Below are positions 1-17,246 of a stretch of DNA of 40,823 nucleotides, piece by piece. This stretch comes from a virus. The stretch spans positions 1-40,823 of the IMG/VR virus record IMGVR_UViG_3300031851_000053. One strand, written 5' to 3'. The first letter of the stretch is position 1, and each line of letters starts with the position of its first letter. The notes under the pieces are model-generated. The model did no database searches. It saw only the letters and a list, made by a program, of their open reading frames with translations, and was not told the DNA's origin. The position numbers and the translations under genes were made by a program.

Positions 1-1581
1 GCTCTGTATGATGATAATCACGGCTTCTGTTTTGTATGTGGTGTGCATGTACAAGATGTAGGAAACAGAAAGGAAATAAAGATGACTAATATGTCTAATG
101 TAGTAATAGATATGGATAAGTTTAAAGAGACTCTTGGTGATCATAGAGGTTGTCAGGAGAGAGGTATAACTAAAGCTATAGCAGAACACTTCGATGTTCG
201 TGTTATGTACAACGATAAAAGAGAAATAGAGGCATACTGCTATCCTTATTATGATGCTGATAATAAACTAACGGCATATAAGATACGTACTATGCCTAAA
301 CAATTTAAAACTGTAGGAGAATTTAAAGATGTTCAGCCTTTTGGTAGTCAGAGTTTTGGAAATGGAGGAAAGAGGCTCGTTATTACGGAAGGAGAGTTTG
401 ATGCGATGGCGGTCGCACAAGCTTCCCTCAACAAGTACAAGAAAATCTACCCAGTTATTAGTGTTGCTTCGTCAACTAACCTCAAGAGTTTACTCCTCAA
501 TCGTACATGGATTAGGTCGTTTGAAGAAGTAGTATTATTCTTTGATAATGACGATGCAGGTAAGAAAGCTATTAGAGAAGCCGCCAATATAATCGGTATA
601 GATAAAGTTAAGGTCACTAATAGTACTGCCAAAGACCCTTGTGAGCTATTCAATCAAGGTGGCTACATGAGAGTCATGGAGGCTATATGGGATGCACAAC
701 CCTATAGTCCAGCTGGTATTGTCATGGGTCACGAAGCAGTGTGGGAACAGTACCTTGAGAGACAATCAAGAGAAAGTATACCATACCCTGATTGCCTTAG
801 AGGTATCAATGATAAGACTAACGGCATGAGGTTCGGTGAGATAACTCTGTTTACCAGTGGTACTGGTTCAGGAAAGTCTACTGTTATCAAGGAGATAGTG
901 CTAGACTTACTTAACAAGTCAGAAGATAAAATAGGTATGATATCACTTGAAGAGTCTGTTGGTGATACTGCTGAGAAGTTTATTCAGATGCAGTTGAGAC
1001 AGAACTTACAAGAGTATGATGTGCCTATAGAGGATCAAGAAAGAGCTTCTAAAGAAGTCTTCGGTACTGATAGGTTAGTATTACTTGATCATCAAGGTTC
1101 TGTAGGTGATGAGTCACTGATAGATAAGATAGAGTACATGGCTCTGATGGGCTGTAAGTATCTTATACTAGACCACATCACTATAGCAGTATCTGAAGGT
1201 GCTGAAGGTTATAGCGGTAATGAGGCTATCGACAAAGTTATGTCAGACCTATTGAAGATAACTAAGAAGCATAACATATGGCTAGGTATTATCAGTCACC
1301 TGAGAAAAGGACTCGTGGGTAGTAAGAACTTTGAAGAAGGTAAGCTACCTAGTCTAGATGATATCAAGGGTTCAGGCTCTATTAAGCAAATATCATTTGA
1401 TATTATAGGTTTTAGTCGTAACATGACTGATGAGAACGATGATGTACGTAACACTATCAACTTCACTGTACTTAAGTCTAGGTTTACAGGTAAGACTGGT
1501 CCAGCTGGTGCGGCTAAGTATCATCATAATACATCTCGTCTCACATGGACAGATGGTTTAGACTTTGAGGTGTTAGACTAA
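1..1581 (+). CDS. T7 gp4-like DNA primase-helicase, 5' end cut by window edge
   Basis: Bifunctional replication protein that would make primers and unwind DNA at the phage fork. The frame is open to base 1, so the N-terminus lies outside the window; 526 residues are visible. Numbering from the first visible codon, Cys10 and Cys13 (FCFVCG) are the last pair of the primase zinc ribbon. A TOPRIM domain follows, with Glu130 in ITEGEFDAMA and the acidic FDNDD at 181-185. The RecA-type helicase domain has Walker A GTGSGKST (Lys292) and a Walker B strand ending in Asp391 (YLILDH). A GTG at base 43 gives an apparent 512-residue ORF, but it falls after the zinc Cys residues, so I reject it as the start. 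The stop overlaps the next start as TAATG. Confident from motif order. Confidence 0.95.
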   Translation, partial: ALYDDNHGFCFVCGVHVQDVGNRKEIKMTNMSNVVIDMDKFKETLGDHRGCQERGITKAIAEHFDVRVMYNDKREIEAYCYPYYDADNKLTAYKIRTMPKQFKTVGEFKDVQPFGSQSFGNGGKRLVITEGEFDAMAVAQASLNKYKKIYPVISVASSTNLKSLLLNRTWIRSFEEVVLFFDNDDAGKKAIREAANIIGIDKVKVTNSTAKDPCELFNQGGYMRVMEAIWDAQPYSPAGIVMGHEAVWEQYLERQSRESIPYPDCLRGINDKTNGMRFGEITLFTSGTGSGKSTVIKEIVLDLLNKSEDKIGMISLEESVGDTAEKFIQMQLRQNLQEYDVPIEDQERASKEVFGTDRLVLLDHQGSVGDESLIDKIEYMALMGCKYLILDHITIAVSEGAEGYSGNEAIDKVMSDLLKITKKHNIWLGIISHLRKGLVGSKNFEEGKLPSLDDIKGSGSIKQISFDIIGFSRNMTDENDDVRNTINFTVLKSRFTGKTGPAGAAKYHHNTSRLTWTDGLDFEVLD

Positions 1582-1760
1582 TGACTGAAGAGTATATGAG
1601 AAAATGTCAAGAGGTAGAGCTACTTGGTAAGCATATAGATAAGCTTACTAAGGAGCGTAATATGTATCGCACACAAGCTATGATGCGAATGAATAGGATA
1701 AAGGAACTAGAAGACAATGAACGTAAGATACTCAAGGAATCATATGATCCCAGCTCATGA
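1581..1760 (+). CDS. Small hypothetical protein, 59 aa, coiled-coil-like
   Basis: I do not recognise this protein. It begins on the ATG that shares its A with the primase-helicase stop (TAATG), so it is probably translated by coupling. The product (MTEEYMRKCQEVELLGKHID at its start) is highly charged, rich in Glu, Lys, Arg and Met, and looks helical throughout. It has no signal peptide or membrane segment. Position between replication genes suggests an early accessory role, but the sequence gives no function. Confidence 0.65.
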   Translation: MTEEYMRKCQEVELLGKHIDKLTKERNMYRTQAMMRMNRIKELEDNERKILKESYDPSS

Positions 1761-1893
1761 AGATGCTGAGAAAATAATTAATCAACTAAGAGCTAACAAG
1801 GTAGTAAGGTATCTTGTTGAGTGGTCAGAGAGTGACTGTAAAAATTACATAGTGGTGAAATTAAATGAAGAAAATAAAGAGAAAACTTATTAA
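1744..1893 (+). CDS. Small hypothetical protein, 49 aa
   Basis: An unrecognised 49-residue ORF whose start overlaps the end of the preceding small gene by 17 bases. An AAGGA Shine-Dalgarno sequence lies about five bases upstream of the ATG, which supports translation. The product has an N-terminal helix-like half (AHEDAEKIINQLRANK) followed by a short strand-like part (VVRYLVEWSES, NYIVVKL), an alpha-beta pattern typical of small phage accessory proteins. No catalytic motif can be named. Confidence 0.6.
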   Translation: MIPAHEDAEKIINQLRANKVVRYLVEWSESDCKNYIVVKLNEENKEKTY

Positions 1894-1990
1894 GATACAA
1901 AACAATGCAGCTAAGAGTGGTGGTAAAATACCCTCTATAGCTGAAGCTTTAATCATGCTAAGAAAGGCAGAGGGAAATGACAGTAAATAA
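1865..1990 (+). CDS. Small basic hypothetical protein, 41 aa
   Basis: An unrecognised 41-residue ORF beginning with a strongly basic segment (MKKIKRKLIK) and followed by a short helix (SIAEALIMLRKAEG). It overlaps the preceding gene by 29 bases and the following dCMP deaminase by 14. The Shine-Dalgarno sequence is weak, so translation probably depends on coupling. The basic N-terminus could contact nucleic acid, but that is only a guess. The chain of overlaps argues that it is real; its small size keeps confidence moderate. Confidence 0.5.
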   Translation: MKKIKRKLIKIQNNAAKSGGKIPSIAEALIMLRKAEGNDSK

Positions 1991-2426
1991 TGTTAAAGAA
2001 AAAGCTAAACTTGAGAGATACGATTATCTATATATGGATATCGCTCAGCGAGTATCTGAGATGTCTCATGATACAGACACTAAAGTTGGAGCAGTTATTG
2101 TCAAAGACGGTAACATTATTTCAATGGGTTGGAACGGTACTCCTACTGGGTTTCCTAATAATTGTAAGGATAATACAACTGGTCGTACACTACCTATTGT
2201 TATACATGCTGAAGCTAATGCTATATGTAAGCTGGCTCGTTCTAGTACGAACGGAGAAGGTGCTACACTATACACTACGCTTTCTCCTTGTACGGAGTGT
2301 ACTAAGCTTATCTTACAGTCTGGTATCGATAATGTTGTGGTCGGACAAGCGTATGAGAATGATATGGTTGGATACGCAATATTAAATAATAAAAAGATGA
2401 TAAAAGTACTTGCAAAAAAGAAGTAA
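1977..2426 (+). CDS. Deoxycytidylate (dCMP) deaminase
   Basis: Zinc-dependent enzyme converting dCMP to dUMP, which feeds thymidylate synthesis for phage DNA. The 149 residues carry the family signature: His77-Ala78-Glu79 (HAEANAI), with Glu79 as the proton shuttle, and the zinc cysteines Cys105 and Cys108 in PCTEC. The N-terminal part (DTDTKVGAVIVKDG, GWNGTPTGFP) matches the substrate-binding region of ComEB/T4-type dCMP deaminases. The ATG at 1977 has a GAGG just upstream and overlaps the preceding small gene. It pairs functionally with the class II ribonucleotide reductase encoded on the other strand at 22805-24553. Length is normal for the compact form of the family. Confidence 0.93.
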   Translation: MTVNNVKEKAKLERYDYLYMDIAQRVSEMSHDTDTKVGAVIVKDGNIISMGWNGTPTGFPNNCKDNTTGRTLPIVIHAEANAICKLARSSTNGEGATLYTTLSPCTECTKLILQSGIDNVVVGQAYENDMVGYAILNNKKMIKVLAKKK

Positions 2427-2438
2427 ACATGTTATAAT
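2410..2438 (+). promoter_or_regulatory. Host sigma70-type promoter before the RNA polymerase gene
   Basis: TTGCAA at 2410-2415 and a perfect TATAAT at 2433-2438 are separated by exactly 17 bases. The -35 box overlaps the last codons of the deaminase gene, and the predicted transcription start near 2445 falls about 20 bases before the RNA polymerase ATG. The geometry is ideal for a bacterial sigma70 promoter. In an AT-rich genome a -10 match alone would mean little, but both boxes with correct spacing directly before this gene make it persuasive. Confidence 0.65.
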
Positions 2439-2466
2439 ATAAGTCCAGAGAAAGAGAGAGAAATAC

Positions 2467-4584
2467 ATGCAGGACATAAAGGACTACCTCCTCAATAAAA
2501 TAAGAGGAGACAACTTGGGTGTAAAGCCCAGACGTAACTTACAACTCATGCGTATGATAGATACGGATGGTGTTGACATGCTAGACTTCTTAATAGAAGA
2601 TATGGTATCCTATGCTAGAAAGGTAATTCAACGTTGCTTTAAACGCAATAAGGTAGAAGGTGAGTCAGCAATAACTCAAGCCTCTATGGCAATAGGTAAA
2701 TATATAGTGGAAGGTTGGGATAGCTCTAACGTAAATTTCAGAGATCATGTACGAGTAGGTGATCTAGTCATTGAAGGTTTCGTTATGTGTGGCTATCTAA
2801 CTATCTCTGTAGGACATATGAAGAGTCGTAAGCCAGTAACAATCCATGCCACTCCTAAGTGGGGTGAGATGGAAGTAGTTGCAGGTAAAACAACTTGTAT
2901 TAGTGCTACAGTGATTCCACCAATCAAAGGACTATTCCAAGACAACGGTAAGTCAGTTATAAAGACTTGGGATAAATCTAAAGAGCATAAGTTCTTTAAA
3001 TACCTCGACAAGCCGTTTGTAAAGGCTATAGATAAACTACAGGCAACTAGATTTGTAGTCAATAGTGATGTGCATAAGGCTATCCTAGAGAACTGGGATA
3101 TGTTCATTAGTAATGAAGAGTATAGCGGTGAAGACAAGAATGAAAACGCTAAGCTTTATCAACGTCAAGCCTCAAAGAATAGAGAAGTCAAAGAGGTCAT
3201 GGCTGCAGCAGATAAATGGTTAGACAAAGAGTTTAGCTTTTATCTTGATGCAGACTATCGAGGCAGACTATACTATAGCGAACCGTTCTTTAACTTTCAA
3301 GGGGCAGATATAGCTCGTAGTCAGTTACTGTTTGCTAAGGGTAGACTCTTCGATGAGACTGCTAACTTCTGGCTTGCAGTACATACTGCTTGCTCATTCA
3401 ATCAGTCATATAGTATAGATCAGATACCTAACTGGGCATCTTCAGACTATAAGAAGATACTATTAGAAGAAGAACTAGATACTATATCTGTAGATAAGAT
3501 GACTCTAGAAGACAGAGCTAGGTGGACTCAAGAAAACCTTGATGTGATAATAGAGATGGGTGAGATGAGAATCTTTGCAGAAGAGGCAGAGAAACGTATA
3601 GCATTCATGGCTTGTTGTATCGAGTGGTATAAGTACTCTCAGAATAAAGATGAGTTCTATACTCAGCTACCTATACCTATTGACGGAGCTAACAATGGTT
3701 GGCAACATCTAGGTGCTATGTCTAAAGACTCACTCACAGGTAGGCTCGTAGGTCTTGTACCAGTAGATATTCAGAATGACTTCTATGTACAGGTAGCTAA
3801 GAGACTCTGTGAGAGGATGCCTGAGTGGTTTGAAGAGAGGCAAATGCCTATGAAGCATATCAGGAAGGGCATAGCTAAACGAGGGGCTATGACTAGGGCT
3901 TACAGTTGTGGTCAAAAGAAGATGTCAGAGTCTATGTATAGTGACTGCTATCAGTTTGGCTACACTAAAGATTACGATATCAACACATGGGATTGTGATG
4001 AGCTTAGTAGTCAAGTGATCAGAGCCATACAAGAAGTATGTCCAGGACCATTAGACACCATGAGATACCTACAGAGGTTAGCTGATAAAGAGATATCTAA
4101 TTGGCTAGCTACATACGGTACTGATAGAGGTCGTGGTATACAATGGGAATCTGAGTCAGGCTTTCCAGTAGTATACGAATGTTATCGTACTAGACCTGCT
4201 AAAGTAGACTGTTATGGATTCAATACACCAGACGGTGAGCTAAGATTCAAGCATGTGATACGAGAGAAGACAGATATACCAGATAGACGAGGGTTTATGT
4301 GTGGTATCAGTCCTAACTTTGTTCATAGCTCTGATGCAGCCCATATGGCTCTTGTAGTAGCCGACTGGGATAGCGAGTTCGGTGCAGTACACGACTCGTT
4401 TAGTGCTCATGCGAGTAAGATAGAAGATCTTATGATAGAAGCACGAGATAAGTTCGTTAAGATATACGATAAAGAAAACTTCTACGACTCAATTCCATTC
4501 GGAAGAGGCTATGAAGGTGAGCAACCTACAATAGGTGCTTTGAATGTAAACGGAGTAATCGAATCAGATTACTTCTTCTGTTAA
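2467..4584 (+). CDS. Single-subunit phage RNA polymerase (T7/N4 RNAPII type), compact
   Basis: DNA-directed RNA polymerase of the T7 superfamily, expected to transcribe phage middle or late genes. All signature motifs are present: the RGR loop at Tyr264-Arg267 (DYRGRLYY) followed by FQGADIARSQLLFAKG; catalytic Asp406 in motif A (PIDGANNGWQH); Lys471 and Tyr479 in motif B (KRGAMTRAYSCG), with the T7 Lys631-Tyr639 spacing of eight; PNFVHSSDAAHMA; and catalytic Asp643 in motif C (VHDSF). At 705 residues it is about 180 shorter than T7 RNAP (883), with most of the loss before the RGR loop, the region that in T7 forms the promoter-binding N-terminal domain. Its size is close to the two N4 RNAPII subunits combined. 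A host-type promoter lies directly upstream. Confidence 0.95.
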   Translation: MQDIKDYLLNKIRGDNLGVKPRRNLQLMRMIDTDGVDMLDFLIEDMVSYARKVIQRCFKRNKVEGESAITQASMAIGKYIVEGWDSSNVNFRDHVRVGDLVIEGFVMCGYLTISVGHMKSRKPVTIHATPKWGEMEVVAGKTTCISATVIPPIKGLFQDNGKSVIKTWDKSKEHKFFKYLDKPFVKAIDKLQATRFVVNSDVHKAILENWDMFISNEEYSGEDKNENAKLYQRQASKNREVKEVMAAADKWLDKEFSFYLDADYRGRLYYSEPFFNFQGADIARSQLLFAKGRLFDETANFWLAVHTACSFNQSYSIDQIPNWASSDYKKILLEEELDTISVDKMTLEDRARWTQENLDVIIEMGEMRIFAEEAEKRIAFMACCIEWYKYSQNKDEFYTQLPIPIDGANNGWQHLGAMSKDSLTGRLVGLVPVDIQNDFYVQVAKRLCERMPEWFEERQMPMKHIRKGIAKRGAMTRAYSCGQKKMSESMYSDCYQFGYTKDYDINTWDCDELSSQVIRAIQEVCPGPLDTMRYLQRLADKEISNWLATYGTDRGRGIQWESESGFPVVYECYRTRPAKVDCYGFNTPDGELRFKHVIREKTDIPDRRGFMCGISPNFVHSSDAAHMALVVADWDSEFGAVHDSFSAHASKIEDLMIEARDKFVKIYDKENFYDSIPFGRGYEGEQPTIGALNVNGVIESDYFFC

Positions 4585-4596
4585 TAGGAGAATATA

Positions 4597-4848
4597 ATGG
4601 AAAATAAAAATTGGTTGGCTCAGACAGGAAGGGATTTTAAAGATTCTGATTTTGGAGAGGAGTTTGGTATACCCCAAAGTGAATGGGGTACAGGACAAAT
4701 AAATAAGATTATGTTAGATAGAGTTCATGCTATGAACCTTGCAGGTTATATAGCAGAAGGTATAGAAGAAAAGAAAGCTAGACATATGGCAGATAAAAGA
4801 AGAAGTATGGCTATGAAGGCGGCTAAAGATGCTGGACTAACATTATAA
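4597..4848 (+). CDS. Hypothetical protein, 83 aa, downstream of RNA polymerase
   Basis: Last gene of the rightward block, 12 bases after the RNA polymerase stop, with a strong AGGAG ribosome site. The 83 residues are hydrophilic: a Trp- and Asp-rich N-terminus (NWLAQTGRDFKDSDFGEEFG) and a helical, Lys/Arg-rich C-terminal half. There is no signal peptide or membrane segment. I do not recognise the family. Its location suggests co-expression with the polymerase, so a transcription-related partner is possible, but nothing in the sequence proves that. The bidirectional terminator follows within ten bases of its stop. Confidence 0.75.
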   Translation: MENKNWLAQTGRDFKDSDFGEEFGIPQSEWGTGQINKIMLDRVHAMNLAGYIAEGIEEKKARHMADKRRSMAMKAAKDAGLTL

Positions 4849-4855
4849 ATAAAGA

Positions 4856-4893
4856 TACCCCACAAGGTTTCCATAAGGATTCCCTGTGGGGTA
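4856..4893. terminator. Bidirectional rho-independent terminator between convergent blocks
   Basis: TACCCCACA at 4856-4864 pairs perfectly with TGTGGGGTA at 4885-4893, a 9-bp stem that can extend inwards past one mismatch. The + side is followed by a T-rich stretch (GTTTATTTT), and the - side reads into TATCTTTATTTATAA, so both transcripts can terminate. It sits exactly between the end of the rightward early block and the end of the leftward late block. Confidence 0.85.
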
Positions 4894-4901
4894 CGTTTAT
4901 T

Positions 4902-7900
4902 TTAAACAAAGTTATCTGTTTTATCTAGTATAGAGAAATCTCCAGGAACTCCTCCATCAAAGTTAATATCAACGCCCATGTCTTCCCAGCGTTGTTTTAC
5001 TTTTGCTATAAGTTTATTGTGATCTTTTCGTATTTGTAAATCATCTACAACTTGCATAAAGATTCTGTAAAAATCTTTAGCTTTTAATTTACGTTTACCA
5101 CCTTTAAACTCTTCAATTAATCTAGCTTGAGCTGCTGTCTTTTTTGTAGCATCAAAGATCCCTTTCTTTTCTTCTTTAGCTTTGATATAGCTTTCTTGTT
5201 TTTCTAGGCTAGCTCTTTGGAATTCTTTTTTATCATAGCCCAGTATATCAACATTGACTACTGCTTTTCGATAGCTCTCATCAGCTAAAAAGTTACCAAA
5301 CTCTCGATACTCACCTATAGGAGATAAATCTAACAAAGCCTCTGGATCACTTTCAGTTTTTTCTTTTAAACTAGCTAAGAAATTATCTAGAGATCTTTTC
5401 TCTTCGGTAAGAAGCTCCCATTGTTTCATAACATTGCCAAATTCTTCATTCATAATTTCGCTAAGTCTTACAAAACCTTTAACATCAGAAATATAACCGT
5501 CATACATTTGAATTACAAAAGCGTTTTTATCATTCTCAAGAAATCGAGTTAGACCTCTTGTAGTCATAGCCGACTCTGCAATATGTGTTGTACTAACTGC
5601 AAACTGATTCATAAGTTTACTAATGGGCTTTGGCGAAGTGTATTCTCCTGGGCTTATTTTCTTACTATCTGCTGCTGCCTGAGGGTCGTCAACCGTTCTT
5701 GTAGCAGTAATAACTGTTTCAGCACCACTAGGAAGCGTATAAACTTCTGCACTAGTAGGTACAGAACGTTTGCCTCCAAATTTGCCTATGAAACGACTAT
5801 TATCGTCAGAATCATCTAACCTTGGACCTCTTAGTTCAGGTATGGTATTACCAAAACCAAATATACGACCAATACGCTTTGCCATCTTAGCATGTTCTAG
5901 TGCACCACCAAGGGCGTTTGTTAAAGCTTCTTTAAAGTATTGACCTAGCTCTTCAAACTTTTCTTCATCAGTTATTTCTAAATCATCAAACAAATTTGCA
6001 TTGTCTTCAATGAATTTTCTAGCTGCACCAGTTTGAAATCGAGGTTCAAGACCAAAGATAGACGTCATAATAGGAGACTTAAGCAAATCTTTTGTTTTAC
6101 CTGCTTCTTCTATTTTTTTAAATATAGTAGACCAGACTTGCCAATTAGAATTATCAGCATGAATCTCAGGTAAATCTTTTATGTAATTAAAAACAAAGTC
6201 TCTTATATCTTCGCCTATTTCTTCTTCGCTTTTAAATAACATTCCACCTCGAACAATAATTTCTTTGACTCCCATTTGAAAGCCTTGAATTGTTGCACCG
6301 TTAGAGATTCCATCTACTTCTCCAGTAGCTCTTGTGTTCATTTGAGCACCCTTAGCTGTCTTATTATATCGAGCTAATTGAACTAGATTATTTAATCCAA
6401 AATAAAATTCATTTTTACCTTGGTCGTCTACAAAGGCTTCTAAATCAGGAGTTAATTGTAATCCAGGAATCACTTCTAAATTTTCTGCAATAACATTCAT
6501 GTCATCTTCAGAAGCATTCTCTAAGGTAGGGGCATTGGTTGCTACATAGTTAAATAAAGGTTCAGATAAGCTACTTAGCCTAACGTAATCATTTTTAAAG
6601 GCTTCTAATAAAGGAACGTAGCCTTGTTTAGCTATCTTATCTGCATCAGTAACAAGAGTTCTTGCCATGACAATCATAAAGTGTTCTTCTTCAGTATAGC
6701 TTTGATTTATTTTTTTACGACCTTCTTCGTTGAGACCTAGCTTAGCTTTCTTAATAGCACTATCTATTACTGCAGTAGGAGTAGGGTTGCCATTAACTAC
6801 TTCTGAAGTCTTAGTCAATGTAGTTGGCATTGCTCCTTTAAGTATGGCTCTTGCAAACTTATGAAATCCAGGGTTTGCCTCGTCATTAATATAAAACATA
6901 CGACCAGTGCCGCTGACTATTGTACTGTCTGTGTATACTACTTTTCCAAGCTTTACTAACGAAGAATTTAATATCTTACTCTTTTCATTATCGATATCTC
7001 TGAGCACTTGTCTAGATTTTATATCAGCCGCTTCTTTAAATGTTTTTACTATAACACCAAAGCTATTTCTTATTTCTAATTGTTCTGGAGTTAACCCTTC
7101 TTTTTCCTTTCGACCTTCAAAGTCTTCTAAAAATTTATTTTCAAGCTTTATTTGAGTCATCATATCTTGTTTCATATATTTAGAAATTGTATTGCTCATA
7201 GAGTTCTTTATTCCAAACCCCATTATAACAGAAGCTGGGTCAAAAACCATAGCTACGTCATTGAGTAATGACAAAACTTTTTCTTGTGCTGGAACAGGAT
7301 TTACATTAGACAGACCTTTAGTTGTTACTCTAGTAAAATAATTAGCTTCACTAACCATAGATGAGCCTGCTTTATAAGGAGTTCCAGTGGTTCTTAAAGG
7401 TTTTAAAAAATCATTATATCCTAACGCTTTCTTTAAACCGTTTCGTATTTTATTTAATGAGACATCTCCAATTCTAGTTTGATTAAAGACAATCTTTTTT
7501 CTACCTGAATCAGGATCAACTATCGTTCTAGATTCTAACCAAGGGAAAGAGTCAGACTCTGCAAAGGCTTGTAGAAAGTATTGACCAGCATTGTCTTGTT
7601 CAGTATCAGTAAGTCTATATTTATATCCTGTATTCTCGATCTCTCCGAAGAAAGCAGTTGGGTCTTGATCAGCACTAGGATATGTCATTTGCTCAAATCT
7701 TCGCATAACTTTTTTACCAAGCTCTTGCCTTGATTGAGAGTTATTAAATCGTCTTTCACTAGGTATGCCTGATTCATACTTTTGATCGTCAAATGAGCTT
7801 AACATTTCAAACATTATGGCTAATCCCAGAATAGAGCCTGCCGCTCCTCTTAACGGAGCATTAGGATCTGTTTGATTAGTTGATAAATTTAATTTATTAG

Positions 7901-8570
7901 GAGAACGCATAACAAAGTTAACATCATTAGCTTCTCTCCTAAGAAAGTCAGTAGCTTCTAATGCAGTCATTGGTGTTGTATCATCTTTAATATTAAGGTT
8001 CATAGCTCCAAAGATATTGTCTGTTCCTTTATTTGCTTTACCTAGAGAAGAAACAAAATCCTTAACAAATTCTTGATCCGAATTATCTTCACCTTGCTTT
8101 ATAGGGAAATATTCTTTTAAACCTTCTGGCGTAACGATTGTACCTAGTCGTGTTCCTATGTCTCTGTTTATTCTACCTTCTTTGATATCGAAGTTAATAT
8201 CTTCGGCTATTTCTTCTCGTGTAGCATCACGAGGTATCGAAGGATCTAATACCGATTCATCTTCTCTTGTTAACGACTTTTTTCTAGCAACAGTTTCATT
8301 AATAAGGGCTTGACTAGCTGCAACAGGTCGCTCCCCCATTGTTGGCATTTCAGTAGGTAGCTGTCCACTAGGTATTGCTCCCCTATTTTTTCTAGCAATA
8401 ACTTCAGGGTCATCTGCTGAGACAACCCCTCCAGTTAATTCTTGTTCTGCAACTTGCCTTAACTGTTCTTCGTCTTGTTTTTTATTTTTCTTAAGAGCTA
8501 AGGCTGCATCCAATTTTTCTTGGCTTATAGCAGTATCTTTTCTTGTAGCTCCTTTACCTCTACCTATCAT
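4902..8570 (-). CDS. N4-type virion RNA polymerase homologue, compact form
   Basis: The 1222-residue protein carries the conserved core of the phage N4 virion RNA polymerase in the right order. Seen: SGTGRMFYINDEANPG with Arg557 (T/DxxGR motif), EVDGISNG with Asp753 (motif A), KDLLKSPIMTSIFG with Lys831 and Phe839 (motif B), and IQMYDGYISD with Asp1024 (motif C). From memory these align with N4 mini-vRNAP Arg424, Asp559, Lys670, Tyr678 and Asp951. DPNAPLRG at 235 also matches an N4 segment at a similar position. N4 gp50 is about 3500 residues; this is close to its 1100-residue catalytic core plus a charged, disordered-looking N-terminus. The catalytic Tyr of motif B is Phe here. It is the last gene of the late block, after the ejection proteins, with ribosome site AGGAG, so packaging and injection are inferred. 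Confidence 0.85.
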   Translation of the reverse strand: MIGRGKGATRKDTAISQEKLDAALALKKNKKQDEEQLRQVAEQELTGGVVSADDPEVIARKNRGAIPSGQLPTEMPTMGERPVAASQALINETVARKKSLTREDESVLDPSIPRDATREEIAEDINFDIKEGRINRDIGTRLGTIVTPEGLKEYFPIKQGEDNSDQEFVKDFVSSLGKANKGTDNIFGAMNLNIKDDTTPMTALEATDFLRREANDVNFVMRSPNKLNLSTNQTDPNAPLRGAAGSILGLAIMFEMLSSFDDQKYESGIPSERRFNNSQSRQELGKKVMRRFEQMTYPSADQDPTAFFGEIENTGYKYRLTDTEQDNAGQYFLQAFAESDSFPWLESRTIVDPDSGRKKIVFNQTRIGDVSLNKIRNGLKKALGYNDFLKPLRTTGTPYKAGSSMVSEANYFTRVTTKGLSNVNPVPAQEKVLSLLNDVAMVFDPASVIMGFGIKNSMSNTISKYMKQDMMTQIKLENKFLEDFEGRKEKEGLTPEQLEIRNSFGVIVKTFKEAADIKSRQVLRDIDNEKSKILNSSLVKLGKVVYTDSTIVSGTGRMFYINDEANPGFHKFARAILKGAMPTTLTKTSEVVNGNPTPTAVIDSAIKKAKLGLNEEGRKKINQSYTEEEHFMIVMARTLVTDADKIAKQGYVPLLEAFKNDYVRLSSLSEPLFNYVATNAPTLENASEDDMNVIAENLEVIPGLQLTPDLEAFVDDQGKNEFYFGLNNLVQLARYNKTAKGAQMNTRATGEVDGISNGATIQGFQMGVKEIIVRGGMLFKSEEEIGEDIRDFVFNYIKDLPEIHADNSNWQVWSTIFKKIEEAGKTKDLLKSPIMTSIFGLEPRFQTGAARKFIEDNANLFDDLEITDEEKFEELGQYFKEALTNALGGALEHAKMAKRIGRIFGFGNTIPELRGPRLDDSDDNSRFIGKFGGKRSVPTSAEVYTLPSGAETVITATRTVDDPQAAADSKKISPGEYTSPKPISKLMNQFAVSTTHIAESAMTTRGLTRFLENDKNAFVIQMYDGYISDVKGFVRLSEIMNEEFGNVMKQWELLTEEKRSLDNFLASLKEKTESDPEALLDLSPIGEYREFGNFLADESYRKAVVNVDILGYDKKEFQRASLEKQESYIKAKEEKKGIFDATKKTAAQARLIEEFKGGKRKLKAKDFYRIFMQVVDDLQIRKDHNKLIAKVKQRWEDMGVDINFDGGVPGDFSILDKTDNFV

Positions 8571-8582
8571 TATATATTCTCC

Positions 8583-11500
8583 TTAATATGGCTCTAATCT
8601 ATCACCATGCATTATTTGATTTATAAGTCGTCTCCCAGGAGTAAATGGTGCTATTCCAGGAGTTAACTTTGTTAATCCACCGACACCTCTCCGAGTATCG
8701 CCTTCCGCAAATGCCATTAATGACTTACCAGCGGTCTCTATATTACGAACAAAAGGAGCACCTCCTATTGACTCTCCAAATATTCTATCTATTATACCTT
8801 CATTTCTGTCTTTATATAAAGGTGCAACAGCTTGTAATACCCTTTCTCCAGAGCCTAGTACTCCTGAAGCCATCAATGCTCTTTGTACTAGCTGAAAATC
8901 AGTTAAATAAGGACTACTTTTTCCAAACTTAATATAGTCTTTAAGCCATTGCGATACGCCTGCTAATGCCATCATAAGCACTATTAATGCAAAAGTATTA
9001 TATCTCATAGCTGGAGTTCCGTTTTTAATATAGTCTTGCCATAGCCTAGGTATAATAACTGCAGTAAAATTAGATATGAATCCATTAAACTGTAAGAACA
9101 ACTGATAGTGTGGGTCTTGAAATATAAGAGGTCTATTAAATCCTTGAGGATTCTGTATTCTCTCATTAGTAAAATACCAAGTAGCCACTTGCATTTGATC
9201 TTGTATAAATGCAGCATCAGTCTTTGCTTGCTCTCTTTCCTTAGGATCAGTTATACTAGAGAAGTCTGCTTCGTATAGTACATCATACATCTCTGGATCA
9301 GTATACTTATCAAACATATCTATCATGGCATCAACATCTAGACCTATATCTGCTAATTGTTGATATATAGCTAATTGTTTTTGATTATAATTAACAGTAC
9401 CATCATTTTGTCTTGCCGCCCATAGCAGTCTTAGCCTATCACTAACAACGCCTGATGCCAGTGCCGCCATCCCTGCTCTTTGAAATGTGGTTTGAGGTGC
9501 TATTAAAGTAAACTTAAAGAATTGTTTCATCCACCACGCTTGAGCAATATCTGCTTCACCCATACCGAGTCTAGTCGCAGCTACTGCATCATCATCATAC
9601 ATCCCTGTCGCTGACAGTCTTTGAACTGCTTTATTAGACTTAGGTACATCAGGTATGTTCTGTAAAGCAGGATTTTGAGGCATATTCTCAATGTTCTTTA
9701 TTATACCTACCATTTCTTTTATGGCTTTAGTTATACCTTTTCTTACAGTTGAAGATTGTGGTCCTTGATATAGTAACATAGCATATTCAACAAAAGAAGC
9801 TAGTACAGACATTGGGAGACCTATAATTGCAGAAAAGAAACTGGCTTTTCGTTGCCAGAAAGATAGCTCTTTACTCTCTATTCTATTATAATTACCAGTA
9901 TCTGCATCAATAATATCTTTAACACCCATAGCTACTTCTTGCATTTCTTCTGGAGTTAAAGCACCTTCATCTTCCATTTGTTTAAACATATAGTCAAGGT
10001 CTTGTCCACCTCTACCAAAGTATTTTGTATAAGTTATATACTTAACGCTTTGATCTATTAATTTAATTTGATTTTGAACTATATCTGTATTAGCAAATTG
10101 TTTAAATCCTTCAAGAGCACTCAGTGGTTCACCATTCTTTTGTTTAAAGTCATTAGGTCTCCACATTGAGCCATCAACCATTGAGAAATCAGTTGCATCT
10201 TCGTTATTAGATATTTTATTATAAAGTATATTTAATTCAACATCAAGATAAGGCTTATTATCAGGAGCTAATGCATTGGCTTTCATAAAACTTAACCATG
10301 CTTCTTTATTTTCTCTGACTTTTCTCCAATCAAAAGTACCTGCATTAAGCCATTGAGGATTTTGTTTATCGACAACTCTTCTTTTAAAGAAAGAATTATC
10401 TATCTGTTCCATTTTAAATTCTTCGTCATAGACTTGTTGTAACGAATCATTTAGGTTTTTGATTGTTTGTTCTAAAGCTAATTGATTATTGATCATATCA
10501 GGAGTTAACTGAGCACCAGTTCTTTTAGCTTCCATATACGCTCTTAACAACGTAGATATGTAGTTATAATTACTTTGTTTATCAGAAAGATTAAATGCTT
10601 TTAATATACCTTTAGGGTTTAAAGTTTGCAATATCATAGAGCGTAGTATAGCAGCATAGCCAGAAGCATTAACACCGCTGTATATGTTACCTAACGCAGT
10701 ACCGACTAACGAAGCTAGCTTACGTAATGTCTTACTCTTCCTTAATAATGCAGGTGTGAAAACAGAAGTTGATCCAGCACGATAACCTAGTGGTAACCAC
10801 TTTTTAAAGTTTTTAAGCTTATCCCAAGTTGTTCTATCTCTTTTTTCTTGAGCTTTTCTTGCTTCCCCTTCTAGACGATATGCACTAGCAATAGAATCAG
10901 GTCTATTGGCTGGTTTAACTTTGGTCTGTTTAGATACTTGTATATTCTTAGATTGCTCTAAAGTTAATGGCTCAACACCGCTATCTCTAAGAGCTTTTTC
11001 TGCATTTAAAGCTTTAAGAGTTATTCTAGCATTGTTTAATTCTTTCCTAATAACTTCTACAGGTCTCTTATCTTCAATAGATTTTAAGAGAGCATTTCTT
11101 TCTTTAACTAAGTCTGAATACTCTTTAACTCTATCAAATTGATCTTGTTGAGTACCTTTATCTCTGACATTAAGTTGTTTAATAACTGCTATTCTATCTT
11201 CAATATTTTTTATAGCCTGTTGAGTTCCAGAAGTATTAGTTCCTTGTTTAGTACTGTCTCTTTCAGTCTTAAGCCTTTCAATATCTTGTAGAGTTGAATC
11301 TAATATGCTATCAAGATCTGTGTTTTCTAATAAACCAACTTGTGGATTACCATAAGTCGGTATTGTATCAATTCTTTTATAATCAGGTTGAGTTAAATAA
11401 GTTTCGTTTGCTTGTGAAGCAGCAACTCCTTCTTTGTTTTTTTCAATAATAGTTTCTATATTTTCTGAAATAACACGACCATCTTCGGTCACAGTCTTAT

Positions 11501-13154
11501 CTGGTTTAAACTCTTCTCTTACCTGAGCATATTCACTAAGCTTACTTCTATCTCCTGCTGCAAGATCAGCCATCAAAGATCTATTTTGACCTTCCCTAAC
11601 TAAAGCTCCAGCCGTTCCAAAAGAAGAACCAAGAGAAGAACCAGCAACTGCTGATTGTGCTAATAAGTTTTTAAACTCATCTATATCAAAATTCTTTTCA
11701 AGCCCACCTTCTGACATGCCTTTAGATGCGAGGTAGCCGACTCCCTCTTGAGCCGCCTCAGTAACACCTTCAAATGTAGCACCTCTAACAGAACCTTTAG
11801 CCATCTCTTTCATAAGACTAGGCTTGGCGACATTTAATAAGGCGAAGTTACCTATACCATCTATGGTCTCTCTTATTGCTCTGCGACTAGCATTATTTAA
11901 AGCTTTCTTTGCTGCGGCTTTAGTTTTATATTTACCAGTCTGCATCATAGCCTGTAATATTTGCACCTTACCTCTTTTAGTAAGGAATTCTCCAGGTTTC
12001 ATAAAGCCTTTCATACCAAGGTAATCAAGAGCAGTCATAATTGTACCAGCTAAAATTGCTCCGCCAGCTTGTGCTCGACCCTTTGGTCCTTCAATATCAT
12101 TAAATACCTGACCAGCATAGCTTCCACCAACAGAACCTAAAGCAATAGGTACTGAAGCACCAAAAGTAAATGGCGATAATACTGCACCTGAGAGTAACGT
12201 TACTAAATAAGGTGCTGACATAGCCATGTTATTAGTCATAAAACGGAAACCATCCCATACACTATCTATATCTCGATAGTCCATGCTTCGAAGTCTTGGT
12301 TCATTTAATAAATCTTCTTTAGCAACTTCAACTTTTCTTCCAGCCCAATCTTGCAGATCTTTACTGCCGACTAATACGCCTGCAAGCTCTGCAAAGCCTT
12401 TCCAACCAGTAGCTAAACCTCCCCAACCTTGATTCCAAGCAGTACTGGTTTGATTATAAGCCACACCTTCTTTAGTCCTATCAGGACTTCTAAATTGCAA
12501 GTTCTCAAATGCAATGCTTCTTTTATCGTAAGATCCTGAGTCAAGTATTTTACTTGCTTTTCTCATGTCGTCAGGGTTAGATAGGTTAAGACCGTTTTGA
12601 TTAGCAATTACTTGTATGACTTGTTGTGCATAACTATTTTCATCTAATGGAATCTCCCCAAATGCTTGTTCAAGTATAGGAGTGTCTTTCATATAGATAG
12701 GTTTTTCTGGCATTTCTTCTTGTGTAATAGATGCGTAAGGATTAGATATACCAGCTTCTCTTTCAAGCTCACCGTATTGTCTAGCTTTTAAGCCATCTTC
12801 TGTTGTATACTTATCAACAGTTAATAAACCAGATTGATAAAGAGTATCAGACAATTCGTTACCGTATTCGTCTTGTAGACTAATTAGCTTACGACCAAAC
12901 TTATCTTCTTCACCATCATCAACAATGTTAGTAAAACCACCTGCAGCTGCAATTCTTTTAGTTGCCTCTGTTTGTGCTTTACCTCCTTGTTGTCCTTGTT
13001 TAAATCTAAGATTACCTTCTTCATCTTCAAATACATGGGGAGTTTCTAATGCATTAAATCCTTTAAGTCTATAACTAGTTGCTCCGTCAGTAACAGTGTC
13101 GGAATCTAGCCATGCATATGTCTTACCATCGTTTCCTTGAAATTCATTAATCAT
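8583..13154 (-). CDS. Giant internal virion/ejection protein with N-terminal SNase-like domain
   Basis: A 1523-residue protein, probably packaged and injected, in the position of T7 gp16. Residues about 5-135 look like a staphylococcal nuclease domain: DSDTV with Asp19, YRLKGFNALETP with Arg29 and Glu37, DKFGRKLISL with Arg88, and a final LSDTLYQSGLL. These match SNase Asp21, Arg35, Glu43 and Arg87; the Asp40 position is Asn34. Next come a hydrophobic, Gly-rich stretch near 310-385, a long charged coiled-coil-like region near 608-732, and a large helical C-terminus with a membrane-like helix near 1385 (ALIVLMMALAG), ending in a basic Pro/Gly-rich tail. It lies between the transglycosylase protein and the vRNAP homologue. 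The nuclease call rests on motifs; the ejection role is inferred from size, order and composition. Confidence 0.75.
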   Translation of the reverse strand: MINEFQGNDGKTYAWLDSDTVTDGATSYRLKGFNALETPHVFEDEEGNLRFKQGQQGGKAQTEATKRIAAAGGFTNIVDDGEEDKFGRKLISLQDEYGNELSDTLYQSGLLTVDKYTTEDGLKARQYGELEREAGISNPYASITQEEMPEKPIYMKDTPILEQAFGEIPLDENSYAQQVIQVIANQNGLNLSNPDDMRKASKILDSGSYDKRSIAFENLQFRSPDRTKEGVAYNQTSTAWNQGWGGLATGWKGFAELAGVLVGSKDLQDWAGRKVEVAKEDLLNEPRLRSMDYRDIDSVWDGFRFMTNNMAMSAPYLVTLLSGAVLSPFTFGASVPIALGSVGGSYAGQVFNDIEGPKGRAQAGGAILAGTIMTALDYLGMKGFMKPGEFLTKRGKVQILQAMMQTGKYKTKAAAKKALNNASRRAIRETIDGIGNFALLNVAKPSLMKEMAKGSVRGATFEGVTEAAQEGVGYLASKGMSEGGLEKNFDIDEFKNLLAQSAVAGSSLGSSFGTAGALVREGQNRSLMADLAAGDRSKLSEYAQVREEFKPDKTVTEDGRVISENIETIIEKNKEGVAASQANETYLTQPDYKRIDTIPTYGNPQVGLLENTDLDSILDSTLQDIERLKTERDSTKQGTNTSGTQQAIKNIEDRIAVIKQLNVRDKGTQQDQFDRVKEYSDLVKERNALLKSIEDKRPVEVIRKELNNARITLKALNAEKALRDSGVEPLTLEQSKNIQVSKQTKVKPANRPDSIASAYRLEGEARKAQEKRDRTTWDKLKNFKKWLPLGYRAGSTSVFTPALLRKSKTLRKLASLVGTALGNIYSGVNASGYAAILRSMILQTLNPKGILKAFNLSDKQSNYNYISTLLRAYMEAKRTGAQLTPDMINNQLALEQTIKNLNDSLQQVYDEEFKMEQIDNSFFKRRVVDKQNPQWLNAGTFDWRKVRENKEAWLSFMKANALAPDNKPYLDVELNILYNKISNNEDATDFSMVDGSMWRPNDFKQKNGEPLSALEGFKQFANTDIVQNQIKLIDQSVKYITYTKYFGRGGQDLDYMFKQMEDEGALTPEEMQEVAMGVKDIIDADTGNYNRIESKELSFWQRKASFFSAIIGLPMSVLASFVEYAMLLYQGPQSSTVRKGITKAIKEMVGIIKNIENMPQNPALQNIPDVPKSNKAVQRLSATGMYDDDAVAATRLGMGEADIAQAWWMKQFFKFTLIAPQTTFQRAGMAALASGVVSDRLRLLWAARQNDGTVNYNQKQLAIYQQLADIGLDVDAMIDMFDKYTDPEMYDVLYEADFSSITDPKEREQAKTDAAFIQDQMQVATWYFTNERIQNPQGFNRPLIFQDPHYQLFLQFNGFISNFTAVIIPRLWQDYIKNGTPAMRYNTFALIVLMMALAGVSQWLKDYIKFGKSSPYLTDFQLVQRALMASGVLGSGERVLQAVAPLYKDRNEGIIDRIFGESIGGAPFVRNIETAGKSLMAFAEGDTRRGVGGLTKLTPGIAPFTPGRRLINQIMHGDRLEPY

Positions 13155-13177
13155 TTAATTCTCCGTTATAAATAAGG

Positions 13178-13230
13178 TATCCCTAAGGGATTCTCCCCTA
13201 TAAGGGTGTGTTAAGAATCTCTTAGGGATA
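13178..13230 (-). terminator. Long hairpin between two ejection-protein genes
   Basis: TATCCCTAAG (13178-13187) pairs with CTTAGGGATA (13221-13230); the stem extends to about 17 bp with one mismatch (13178-13194 with 13214-13230). On the - strand it follows the transglycosylase gene stop within a few bases and is followed by a T-rich CCTTATTTATAA. It could be a partial terminator or an RNA-processing site that tunes expression of the two last, very large genes. A + strand terminator is less likely, as no gene reads into it. Confidence 0.6.
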
Positions 13231-13233
13231 ATG

Positions 13234-15381
13234 TTATTTTCCGTATCCAGCTTTCACTAAAATATCTTCTATTTCTTTTTCAGATGTCTTAGAGACCCAA
13301 TAAGAAAAAGCATCCCAGCCTTTTCCTTTATCGTCAAGTCTTGCTTCAACGTCTTTTAATAGATTACCATAAGCAACCTTATCATTCCTTACCATCCATT
13401 TAAAAGCTATCTCTCTATATCCAAATTCTTTTTCTAATTGAGTTTGAAATCGAGGATCATCTTTAGCGTATGGTATATTATTAGTTACCATATCTTGTAT
13501 TGATTCAAGATTCTTTTCAGTAGTATTTTTAACCATGCCTTGATCAATACCTGTTAGTGGTACAAAGACTTCAGCATTTAAATATGATCTTAAAGTTACT
13601 GGTGCTTCCGACTTATTAATCTTAGCCTGAACTTTAGCATCTAGGTATTTAGCAATACCACGATTAATTGCTGCTTCATAAGCTGGAGCATCATTAACAG
13701 ATATAGCATTCCGTCTTAAAACATTTCTATAAAAAGCATTTGCTTGTTGACCTAAATCGTTAGCATTAATTTTAACTGTATTATCACTTGGTTTATCACC
13801 ACCGACTTGTTTAAGCCCATACTCATCATTAGCAACTTTTATTTGTGAATTTGCATTATCAGCAAAACGTTTAGATACAGCTACGTCTCCGTGTACCTGT
13901 GAATCCATCTTTTCTACTCGACCTCTAAGGTCTGGATGGTTAGGTGATTTGTATTGACCTCTATGAAATACCTTAGTCGTACCATCACTCATCGTGAATG
14001 TAGGTAGCTGACCAAAACCTCTTGCATATACACTTCCTGCTGGAGCTTTAACAGTTAGTGTTTTAGCCTTAGGTATAAGTACGTCTATGTCACCTGTTCT
14101 GGCATATTCTTTAAGTGAATCCATTTCAAAATCATCACGAGCTTTTTCTGTAAGAGCAAACTTTTTAGCCGCCTCTGCATTAGCATCAACACGCTTTATA
14201 TAGTTCTTCATAGAATAATTTAGAGAGCCGCCATGGTTATACCCCATAGCACGAGAACCAGCATATATAATAGCCATCCTTGCGAGTTCTTCACCGTTAA
14301 ACATACTTGAAAAGGCATCTTTAAAATACTCCATTGATTTGTCTAAGATAGGACCACCAACTTTTTTACCTTTATCAATAAACTTTTCAACAATATTTTT
14401 TTCTGGATTATCTTTTATCCATTGAGTTACTTCTTCATTGTTCATTACTGTTTGATCAATATCTTCTTCATCATTTAATTGGTCTGTTACTTTTTGTGCA
14501 GCTATCTTTTTTGCTTCCATATCTGCGGTAAGCTCACCACCACTTGGGTCTTCATCTACTATGCTCTCTACTGAAAGAGAATCTGGTGAAATACCAGAAG
14601 GTCCAAAGTGAGAATAAATATTTTTGTCTAGCCCACCATATCCAACACCATCTTTTTGAGGGTTAGGTATTTCTTCATTTGTCCTATTACCATAATTCTG
14701 TGCATTAGGATAAGATAATTCATTACCATCGTACATAGCTGTTTGTACTGGAACATCGCCTATCTCAGCGTTCACCTTACCAGCATACGCCTGACCAACA
14801 GGTCCGATGTTATCCTTAAGTACATTACCAGCACCTGAATGATATGCAGTTAGTACCTGATCTTTAGTAAACTCTGGATGCTGCTTAATAATACCTTGTA
14901 GATATTGTTTAGCAAATGCCCTAGACTTTTCTGGATCAAAGCGATCTTCAAGAGAGATAGGTGTTGTGCCATATCCAGGTTGTTGTGCTGTCTTAGGCAT
15001 AATTTGGTATTGACCACCAGCCCCTACGCCTGAAAGAGCATTAGGATCACCGCCAGATTCTACCTGTTTGATAGCATCTAGCATAGCATCATCGACAATA
15101 ACTCCGCCATCAGCATTATAGCTAGGTATCGGTCCACCTTGCTTCTTCTGTATAGCACGACCAGCATCATTAAGCTTATCTAACATAGGTTGTACTCCAG
15201 GAAGTCTCGATGCTTCTGCATTCACTACGTTTTCTCCAGGAGTTAACATAGCAGGTACAGTATCAGTTCCCTTTGGTTTAAATATCTCTGGGTTAGGAAT
15301 CTCTTGCATAGAAGGAACATCGAATTCGTAGGAAAACATATTTCCATACCTATCTTTTTCTGTGTACTTTTTAATGTTCAT
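13234..15381 (-). CDS. Virion protein with lytic transglycosylase (SLT) domain
   Basis: A 715-residue protein, probably ejected to open peptidoglycan during DNA entry. Residues about 97-200 form an SLT/goose-lysozyme fold: AIKQVESGG with catalytic Glu108, GAGGQYQIMPKTA, and TAYHSGAGNVL. Upstream, GTDTVPAMLTPGENVV (38-53) is a motif common in phage tape-measure and injection proteins. The remainder, about 500 residues, is acidic and helical with no recognised domain. The start overlaps the stop of the preceding gene as TAATG. The domain is clear; its role as part of a cell-wall-penetrating ejection complex follows from its neighbours and the T7 gp16/P22 analogues. Confidence 0.85.
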   Translation of the reverse strand: MNIKKYTEKDRYGNMFSYEFDVPSMQEIPNPEIFKPKGTDTVPAMLTPGENVVNAEASRLPGVQPMLDKLNDAGRAIQKKQGGPIPSYNADGGVIVDDAMLDAIKQVESGGDPNALSGVGAGGQYQIMPKTAQQPGYGTTPISLEDRFDPEKSRAFAKQYLQGIIKQHPEFTKDQVLTAYHSGAGNVLKDNIGPVGQAYAGKVNAEIGDVPVQTAMYDGNELSYPNAQNYGNRTNEEIPNPQKDGVGYGGLDKNIYSHFGPSGISPDSLSVESIVDEDPSGGELTADMEAKKIAAQKVTDQLNDEEDIDQTVMNNEEVTQWIKDNPEKNIVEKFIDKGKKVGGPILDKSMEYFKDAFSSMFNGEELARMAIIYAGSRAMGYNHGGSLNYSMKNYIKRVDANAEAAKKFALTEKARDDFEMDSLKEYARTGDIDVLIPKAKTLTVKAPAGSVYARGFGQLPTFTMSDGTTKVFHRGQYKSPNHPDLRGRVEKMDSQVHGDVAVSKRFADNANSQIKVANDEYGLKQVGGDKPSDNTVKINANDLGQQANAFYRNVLRRNAISVNDAPAYEAAINRGIAKYLDAKVQAKINKSEAPVTLRSYLNAEVFVPLTGIDQGMVKNTTEKNLESIQDMVTNNIPYAKDDPRFQTQLEKEFGYREIAFKWMVRNDKVAYGNLLKDVEARLDDKGKGWDAFSYWVSKTSEKEIEDILVKAGYGK

Positions 15382-16295
15382 TACTTACCTCCGCCTGAGC
15401 CTGATGATTGTGCATCATCTGAATAACTAGAATTACTTACTGATACTCCTGTAGAGCCAGTTGATTCTGGGTTTGAAGTATCAGGACCACCTGAAGGTGC
15501 TTCTGTAGAAAATGTTCCTGTAGTGCTATATTGAGAGCCAGTTGGAGCTGCTCCTGTACTGCTATAACTACTAGGATCAGTAGCCGCATCATGGGTAGCA
15601 GTTCCAGGCTGAGCCTGTGCTTCTGAAATACCTCTGTCCATTAAACCTTTAGTAGCTGCTTTGTCTGGGTCTAAACCTTTTGCCTCTGCAAATTGAACGT
15701 CTTGCATTTTTTTAGAGTTAGGATCATAATCAAAAGCATTCTTAGGATCACCAAGAATATTACCAAGAGGATCATCCATAATTTGATTTGCAAATGCTCC
15801 CATCGTAGCGTACTCAGGATTCGCATAACCTGTTATAGGATCTATTGATCTCCCTTGTTGATCAAATGTACCACCAGTAATACTACTAACAGTTCCAGGA
15901 GTCCCATAACCACTAGTAGGTACGGCTGGTCCAAATAAACCATAGCCTGGAATCATATTCATTGGACTTGGTCCATACGTTTTTTGTAAACCAAAGTCTT
16001 GTCCTATATTTGCATTGTTAATATTTTTATTCGCTTGATCAATAGACATCTGTGTACTTGCCATAGCACTCCCATTATCACTATCACTGCCCATAGTCAT
16101 AGAAGTATTATCCGCATATGGGGTAGGGGCTACTGTTGGGGCTTCGTATGCTGGGATAGTGTACTGAACAGGGGGTATATTTGCTGGACTCATAGAAGGT
16201 GCAAAATTCGAACCGCTATATCTAAAGCCATACTTCGGTTGTATTGAAGGAGCTGGTTGATAGGGCGTTGTGCCTGCACTAGATTTAAATGCCAT
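15381..16295 (-). CDS. Low-complexity virion-associated protein, 304 aa
   Basis: An unrecognised protein with strongly biased composition. The N-terminal 60 residues are Pro/Tyr/Ser-rich (PAPSIQPKYGFRYSG), the middle has NMIPGYGLFGPAVPTSGYG, and the last 80 are almost entirely Ser, Gly, Thr and Asp. It is probably disordered. It sits within the run of presumed ejection proteins, sharing its stop with the next start (TAATG), so I infer a minor virion or ejection role. There is no enzymatic motif or clear membrane helix. The low-complexity tail resembles that of the 213-residue protein two genes upstream, which also ends in Ser/Gly. Confidence 0.75.
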   Translation of the reverse strand: MAFKSSAGTTPYQPAPSIQPKYGFRYSGSNFAPSMSPANIPPVQYTIPAYEAPTVAPTPYADNTSMTMGSDSDNGSAMASTQMSIDQANKNINNANIGQDFGLQKTYGPSPMNMIPGYGLFGPAVPTSGYGTPGTVSSITGGTFDQQGRSIDPITGYANPEYATMGAFANQIMDDPLGNILGDPKNAFDYDPNSKKMQDVQFAEAKGLDPDKAATKGLMDRGISEAQAQPGTATHDAATDPSSYSSTGAAPTGSQYSTTGTFSTEAPSGGPDTSNPESTGSTGVSVSNSSYSDDAQSSGSGGGK

Positions 16296-16304
16296 GTTTT
16301 TCTC

Positions 16305-17246
16305 CTATGTATTAGGTGCGTTATCTGGTCTTATCATGTCATAAGGACTATATGTTGTATCAGCATTGAGAGGATCTGCTCCTAGAGGAGGTCGCATCAT
16401 CGGCATAGCCTGTTGAGCTGCTTCAGTCATGCTTTCAGCCATTATCTCGTTGTATAAATCATCAGGATTTATTCTCATCATAGGCATACTTGTCGGTGGC
16501 ATTGTTTGAATGGGCTCTGGTTGATTGTTCATCAGTGCCATTGCTTGTTCTTTTGACATTGTACCCTGTGCATTATACTGTGTTCCATATGCTCGTGGAT
16601 CAATCGTAGTTCCCATTTTTTTTGCTCTAGCTTTTGCTTCAGCTACTGCTGGGCTGTTAGAATATTTTCCTCTTGGATCTGGTAAGCTGCTATCGTAAGA
16701 AAGATCTTCTCCTTCGTATGGAAAATACATATTATAAAGTTTATTAGCTGGATTAGTTATATATTTTTTTATAAAACCACCATCACCACTATAGCCGTCA
16801 ACACCTCCTCCAGACATTGAAACACCTGCCATGCCGCCACCATAGTTATACTGTGCACTTAATGGTCCAACCATTCCACCTTCATTAAACAATCCAAGTG
16901 CCTTACCAGCCAATAGACCAGCTCCGACATAAGGCATTGCTGTACCTATCGCTGCCATGCCTCCACCGCCAGCCATTGGTCCTAAGACTGAACCTCCTTC
17001 TATAGCACTACCTACTGTAGGGGCTAACATGCTTGACATACCTTGTTTTGCACCTGCAGTAATTGCTTTAGCTCCAGCACCAGCGGCATCTGACATAAGC
17101 TTTTGTTTAACCATGTCACCCATTTGTCCAGCCATTCCTTTTTGTTGGGGCTGAGGTGATTGCACTTGTGCAAGAGGTGCTTGTTGCATTTGCATAGTTT
17201 GATTTCTTTTTTGTTCGTCTTCTGGGCTTAATGCTAGATCAATCAT
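16305..17246 (-). CDS. Gly/Ala/Met-rich presumed ejection protein, 313 aa
   Basis: No family recognised. The first 40 residues are Gln/Pro-rich. Residues about 45-140 are a long Gly/Ala-rich, weakly hydrophobic stretch (GAGLLAGKALGLF, MAGGGGMAAIGTAMPYVG) that looks like glycine-zipper helices able to enter a membrane, as expected of proteins that build a translocation channel. The C-terminal half is Met/Pro-rich and probably disordered (MPPTSMPMMRINPDD). It overlaps the upstream gene by four bases (ATGA). The ejection role is inferred from composition and from the adjacent transglycosylase and giant internal proteins. Confidence 0.75.
   Translation of the reverse strand: MIDLALSPEDEQKRNQTMQMQQAPLAQVQSPQPQQKGMAGQMGDMVKQKLMSDAAGAGAKAITAGAKQGMSSMLAPTVGSAIEGGSVLGPMAGGGGMAAIGTAMPYVGAGLLAGKALGLFNEGGMVGPLSAQYNYGGGMAGVSMSGGGVDGYSGDGGFIKKYITNPANKLYNMYFPYEGEDLSYDSSLPDPRGKYSNSPAVAEAKARAKKMGTTIDPRAYGTQYNAQGTMSKEQAMALMNNQPEPIQTMPPTSMPMMRINPDDLYNEIMAESMTEAAQQAMPMMRPPLGADPLNADTTYSPYDMIRPDNAPNT

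Follow-up and report, generated by a model that had tools for sequence, protein, structure and literature searches.

Natural phenylalanine in place of the motif-B tyrosine in a compact N4-type, putative virion RNA polymerase of a marine podovirus

In textbooks, the tyrosine that ends motif B is what selects the sugar in T7-type RNA polymerases, and the mutant with phenylalanine in its place is a laboratory workhorse for the production of modified RNA. The question of what such a replacement means in a wild enzyme is raised by the window, the 40,823-nucleotide stretch of IMG/VR virus record IMGVR_UViG_3300031851_000053 that was analyzed here. From the letters alone, the sequence-only reading had proposed that the 1,222-residue product of the ORF at 4902 to 8570 on the minus strand is a virion RNA polymerase with Phe839 in motif B. 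The triplet AAA on the plus strand reads TTT on the minus strand, and both the codon and the motif B around it were as described. The features discussed below are listed in Table 1.

Table 1. Coordinates of the polymerase genes, catalytic motifs, and neighboring genes in the window
Feature	Position	Strand	Remarks
T7-like RNAP, second polymerase, 705 aa	2467..4584	+	PF00940, E 1.6e-51; Tyr479, His620, Gly411
Compact N4-type (putative virion) single-subunit RNA polymerase, 1222 aa, no cysteine	4902..8570	-	Motifs, profile matches, fold
Motif C, Y1023-D1024-G1025	5496..5504	-	Asp1024 invariant, n = 36
His996-Ile-Ala-Glu999, equivalents of T7 His784 to Asp787	5574..5585	-	Gap-free profile alignment; relatives have Gln and Asp
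Motif B, K827-DLL-K831-SPIMTSI-F839-G840	6051..6092	-	
Phe839 codon TTT	6054..6056	-	T7 Tyr639 / N4 Tyr678 position; column 35 Tyr, 1 Phe
Motif A, D753-G-I-S-N-G758	6297..6314	-	Asp753 invariant; Gly758, the steric gate (T7 Gly542), in 35/36
TxxGR-type motif, G-T-G-R557	6900..6911	-	Arg557 in 35/35 homologues with a residue at the column
Four cysteine-free genes, likely ejection proteins, one with a transglycosylase domain	8583..17246	-	Beside the vRNAP gene

Single-sequence searches with the ORF gave no convincing relatives in Pfam, PHROGs, PDB sequences, or INPHARED (tblastn); the PDB matches were weak and chance-like, e.g., an engineered chalcone isomerase, and no homologue was found in a single-sequence IMG/VR scan or in a search of GTDB genomes. 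The lack of a direct match in Pfam, PHROGs, or PDB sequences speaks for a protein that is no polymerase and resembles motif B by chance. Homologues were reached through the neighboring RNAP gene, with which 48 loci were collected, and in the loci extending far enough the ORF adjoining that gene was homologous to the window ORF. Across 36 distinct homologues, including the window enzyme and gp33 of phage CRP-7, the superfamily residues occur in order, namely, the Arg of TxxGR (Arg557), the Asp of motif A (Asp753), Lys or Arg at positions 827 and 831 of motif B (both Lys in the window enzyme), and the Asp of motif C (Asp1024), with no exception for R557, D753, and D1024 wherever the column is filled. 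The family profile matched the N4 vRNAP core over 466 columns with the motifs in register (hhalign E 1e-5) and the family of the window's own T7-like RNAP, a profile built from four sequences only (E 5e-6). An AlphaFold model of residues 221 to 1222 (pLDDT 77, pTM 0.78) has the palm/fingers/thumb fold and matched T7 RNAP with Z 23.6 over 521 residues and N4 mini-vRNAP with Z 21.8 over 712 residues. A chance resemblance is already contradicted by the four ordered motifs in 36 homologues, the profile homology to two RNAP groups, and the fold match across 500 to 700 residues, and its probability is negligible. Judged by motifs, profiles, and predicted fold, the ORF is a highly diverged single-subunit RNA polymerase. 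Since it has 1,222 residues and its family spans 1,170 to 1,330, against approximately 3,400 to 3,500, with extra domains at both the N and the C terminus, in the giant N4-type vRNAPs, it is a compact relative rather than a Schitoviridae-type giant.

The placing of Phe839 at the position of T7 Tyr639 and N4 Tyr678 was upheld by the same two profile comparisons, in which it fell on N4 Tyr678 and on the motif-B Tyr of the T7-like family, respectively. In the AlphaFold model, it is the residue right after the motif-B helix, which is the O-helix by position. The closest tyrosines are residues 796 and 878, at distances of 43 and 39 residues, so no nearby Tyr is able to replace it. The Tyr that ends motif B as a superfamily trait is absent from this enzyme, and the other RNA polymerase of the genome keeps its Tyr479, as had been noted from the sequence.

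An alignment of homologues had been suggested to see whether Phe is fixed in the clade, and it gave the opposite answer: 35 of the 36 distinct homologues have Tyr, the window enzyme alone has Phe, and the sister sequence L032 has Tyr. The homologue set and the scans covered records other than those near-identical to the window. When all IMG/VR contigs were scanned for P[IV]MT[ST][IM][YF]G, a degenerate motif, and for a pattern of motif C, every relative retrieved had Tyr. Among the Phe-specific DNA patterns, KxP[IV]MTx[IM]FG hit one unrelated ORF, KxPLMExSFG hit three unrelated ORFs, and KNPLT[IV]T[ILV]FG had no match, so that none of them retrieved a family member. Within the compact family, the alignment thus indicates that Phe is sporadic and not fixed. 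The sequence-only reading had named sporadic Phe together with strictly ribonucleotide-specific activity as what would count against it, and the first half of this pair is what was found (1/36). The branch of the window enzyme is long (1.16 in a quick tree). A single exception would also result if faulty sequencing or assembly had turned TAT into TTT; the record is one metagenomic contig, the two codons are one base apart, and the comparison set is without records near-identical to the window. Nevertheless, the ORF is intact across 1,222 codons, a mistake at exactly that base is improbable, and further pocket columns of the same protein also deviate, which makes an error very improbable. What the sequences probably reflect is a replacement that arose naturally in one lineage, on a long branch, as part of the overall explanation preferred below.

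Natural Phe at this position is also found outside the compact family. The vRNAPs of the Pseudomonas phages LUZ7 and LIT1 (RKVIKQPLTAMMFG and RNVIKKPLTAMMFG) have Phe at the position of N4 Tyr678, as do all six IMG/VR loci of their group (6/6), and every other Schitoviridae-like locus with a readable motif has Tyr. In this group, vRNAP cores with 73% identity have both retained Phe. As early as 2010, a supplementary legend mentioned a "Y678F substitution" in N4-like RNAPs (PMC3715699). The assignment of that substitution to the middle RNAPII of LUZ7 and LIT1 was rejected, as the RNAPII subunits have Tyr and the vRNAPs have Phe. The LUZ7 and LIT1 vRNAPs are thought to transcribe the early genes as in N4. 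The aligned sequences make two or more natural origins of Phe probable, and the motif-B Tyr appears typical of the T7-like single-subunit RNAP superfamily and not strictly defining, because these vRNAPs also have Phe. Because of the LUZ7/LIT1 enzymes and the sporadic occurrence in the compact family, the substitution is less unusual than supposed.

The sporadic Phe, the long window branch, and the Phe of LUZ7 and LIT1 would all agree with neutral drift, in which the Tyr hydroxyl has little weight in the family and nothing compensates for its loss. The column itself argues otherwise: with Tyr in 35 of 36 homologues that are approximately 15 to 30% identical, it belongs to a set of only 23 near-invariant columns. 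The Tyr is therefore generally under strong selection, and drift is rather unlikely.

Sugar selection in T7 RNAP relies on Tyr639, with a Mg-mediated contact to the 2'-OH, on His784, with a hydrogen bond to the 2'-OH, and on Gly542, which leaves room for it (PMC11617373). The sequence-only reading stated that the engineered Tyr-to-Phe change relaxes this selection, and this is correct: in T7 Y639F, the rATP/dATP preference falls from approximately 120- to 140-fold to approximately 5- to 7-fold (PMC9836923). The window enzyme retains Gly758 at the Gly542 position and has no bulky steric-gate residue of the Pol I type in motif A. At the T7 His784 position it has His996, aligned gap-free with NFVHSSD of the T7-like RNAP, in a column of 33 Gln, 2 His, and 1 Thr, and at the T7 Asp787 position it has Glu999, in a column of 35 Asp and 1 Glu. 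Among the near-invariant columns of the family, it deviates at three, F839, I983 (Gly983 to Ile), and E999, the latter two within the His784 segment. The earlier idea that discrimination is left to other residues has candidates, the retained Gly758 and the gained His996, which could contact the ribose 2'-OH. The sequences suggest that the loss of the Tyr hydroxyl was accompanied by a rebuilt ribose-side contact. In LIT1 (ATHAGDS) and LUZ7 (ATHALDS), as opposed to N4 (IGTGDGM), a His also occurs in the segment before motif C, its match being ambiguous because, near the His784 region, hhalign leaves a one-residue uncertainty in aligning the family to Schitoviridae. The pairing of His with Phe is not exclusive, since one homologue (L045) has His together with Tyr, and the association rests on two origins of Phe and is without statistical power. 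It is a tentative and unlikely possibility that natural vRNAPs twice independently rebuilt ribose recognition, losing the motif-B Tyr hydroxyl and relying instead on a His that lies at the T7 His784 position or next to it, here with an adjoining Asp-to-Glu change, to give an altered, perhaps broader sugar selection.

Genuinely relaxed selection with functional dNTP insertion, for instance in mixed primers on entering DNA, had been raised from the sequence. Use of dNTPs by a Phe enzyme is chemically reasonable from the approximately 20-fold lower selectivity of T7 Y639F (PMC9836923), two more pocket columns are altered (Asp999 to Glu and Gly983 to Ile), and the N4 transcription machinery has been implicated in DNA replication too (PMC4496689). 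Nothing supports a primer-making or mixed-chain role, however; the steric-gate Gly is retained and a His gained, Phe is absent even from the sister L032, the phage encodes its own primase-helicase, and no dedicated role is seen, so functional dNTP insertion appears improbable.

The virion part of the original designation draws on homology, gene order, and the lack of cysteine, from which we infer that the enzyme is probably packaged; the polymerase part is borne out above. No Cys occurs in its 1,222 residues (chance of approximately 3e-5 at the Cys rate of the other window proteins), and the vRNAPs of N4, LUZ7, and LIT1 are likewise cysteine-free. The joint chance that this gene and the four next to it, five adjoining genes in all, are free of Cys is approximately 6e-16. 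In LUZ7 and LIT1, the absence of Cys was proposed to help passage of the vRNAP into the cell (PMC3715699), and in DEV, a LIT1-type phage, the vRNAP was identified as an ejection protein (PMC10925440). The leftward virion block ends with the vRNAP gene, which faces the replication genes as it does in N4 and LUZ7, so that a cysteine-free enzyme encoded at the end of a leftward virion operon is present as in the N4 type. Four window ORFs in the 8583 to 17246 block have at best weak family matches. A gene for the large subunit of ribonucleotide reductase (22805 to 24553) sits within the virion gene block; in CRP-7, the corresponding region holds two separate shorter CDS, both annotated as ribonucleotide reductase large subunit.

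A sharp mosaic boundary lies beside the vRNAP gene, between 1 to 4902 and 4902 onward of the window, as compared among eight loci (L002, L003, L005, L006, L008, L032, L035, and L038). L002 shares 94.5% DNA identity with positions 1 to 4902 (primase 99% and RNAP 98% as protein), the near-identity stops with the final base of that gene, the vRNAP gene, and the two vRNAPs are 29% identical. The vRNAP and the virion block seem to be exchanged as a cassette. The gene blocks converge on a conserved hairpin with A/T-rich flanks at 4843 to 4902 (z -6.8), which likely acts as a terminator in both directions. Most members of the close clade have it immediately next to the vRNAP stop; several other genomes carry these 60 bases next to the RNAP gene, with the vRNAP farther away.

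Taken together, the locus is best explained, with reasonable though not full confidence, as the gene of a CRP-7-like marine podovirus for a compact virion RNA polymerase of the N4 type, which would serve early transcription and in which Phe would weaken discrimination against dNTPs while RNA is still made. By analogy with N4, the enzyme would be packaged, ejected with the DNA, and transcribe the early genes ahead of the synthesis of the phage-encoded T7-like RNAP. N4-type virion polymerases start early transcription at hairpin promoters; the early region lies outside the window. Without the phenol hydroxyl, dNTPs are probably rejected less strictly, as in T7 Y639F. The choice of ribonucleotides would be upheld by the Gly758 gate, the His at the T7 His784 position, and the cellular pools, in which rNTPs exceed dNTPs, for which reasons the product of the enzyme is very probably still RNA. 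Rather than a DNA or mixed-chain polymerase, it is most likely a vRNAP for early transcription whose sugar selection is somewhat weakened or rerouted.

By the sequence comparisons, the substitution is real, rare, and natural, and it occurs in a previously unrecognized family of compact (approximately 1,200 aa) N4-type vRNAPs of CRP-7-like marine phages. Wild Phe enzymes would show how ribose selection persists without the motif-B Tyr hydroxyl, and they may be ready-made catalysts for 2'-modified NTPs.

Among known systems, gp33 of the Roseobacter phage CRP-7 belongs to the same family, with approximately 1,235 aa, and its gene likewise lies between that of the RNAP and the leftward genes; it has Tyr and Gln where the window enzyme has Phe and His, on a very long branch. 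In its locus (L050, 7860 to 11567), gp33 is annotated as hypothetical only; it has Asn in the steric-gate Gly column kept by nearly all others, an uncertain assignment from a single alignment, and has dropped the Gly around motif C. The LUZ7/LIT1 vRNAPs (Schitoviridae, Migulavirinae) resemble the window enzyme in the single-subunit vRNAP core, motifs, lack of Cys, Phe, and His before motif C; in contrast, they have approximately 3,400 aa against 1,222, Phe is fixed across their group and sporadic in the compact family, and the sequence similarity is only distant. N4 gp50 shares the fold, the motif register, the absence of Cys, and a gene position that closes the leftward virion operon, whereas its 3,500 aa, large extra domains, Tyr678, and lack of a His at the T7 His784 position set it apart. 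T7 RNAP has the polymerase fold and the equivalents Gly542 and His784 in common with the window enzyme at approximately 10% identity, and T7 Y639F carries the same Tyr-to-Phe change, but there the change is man-made and the enzyme is no virion protein.
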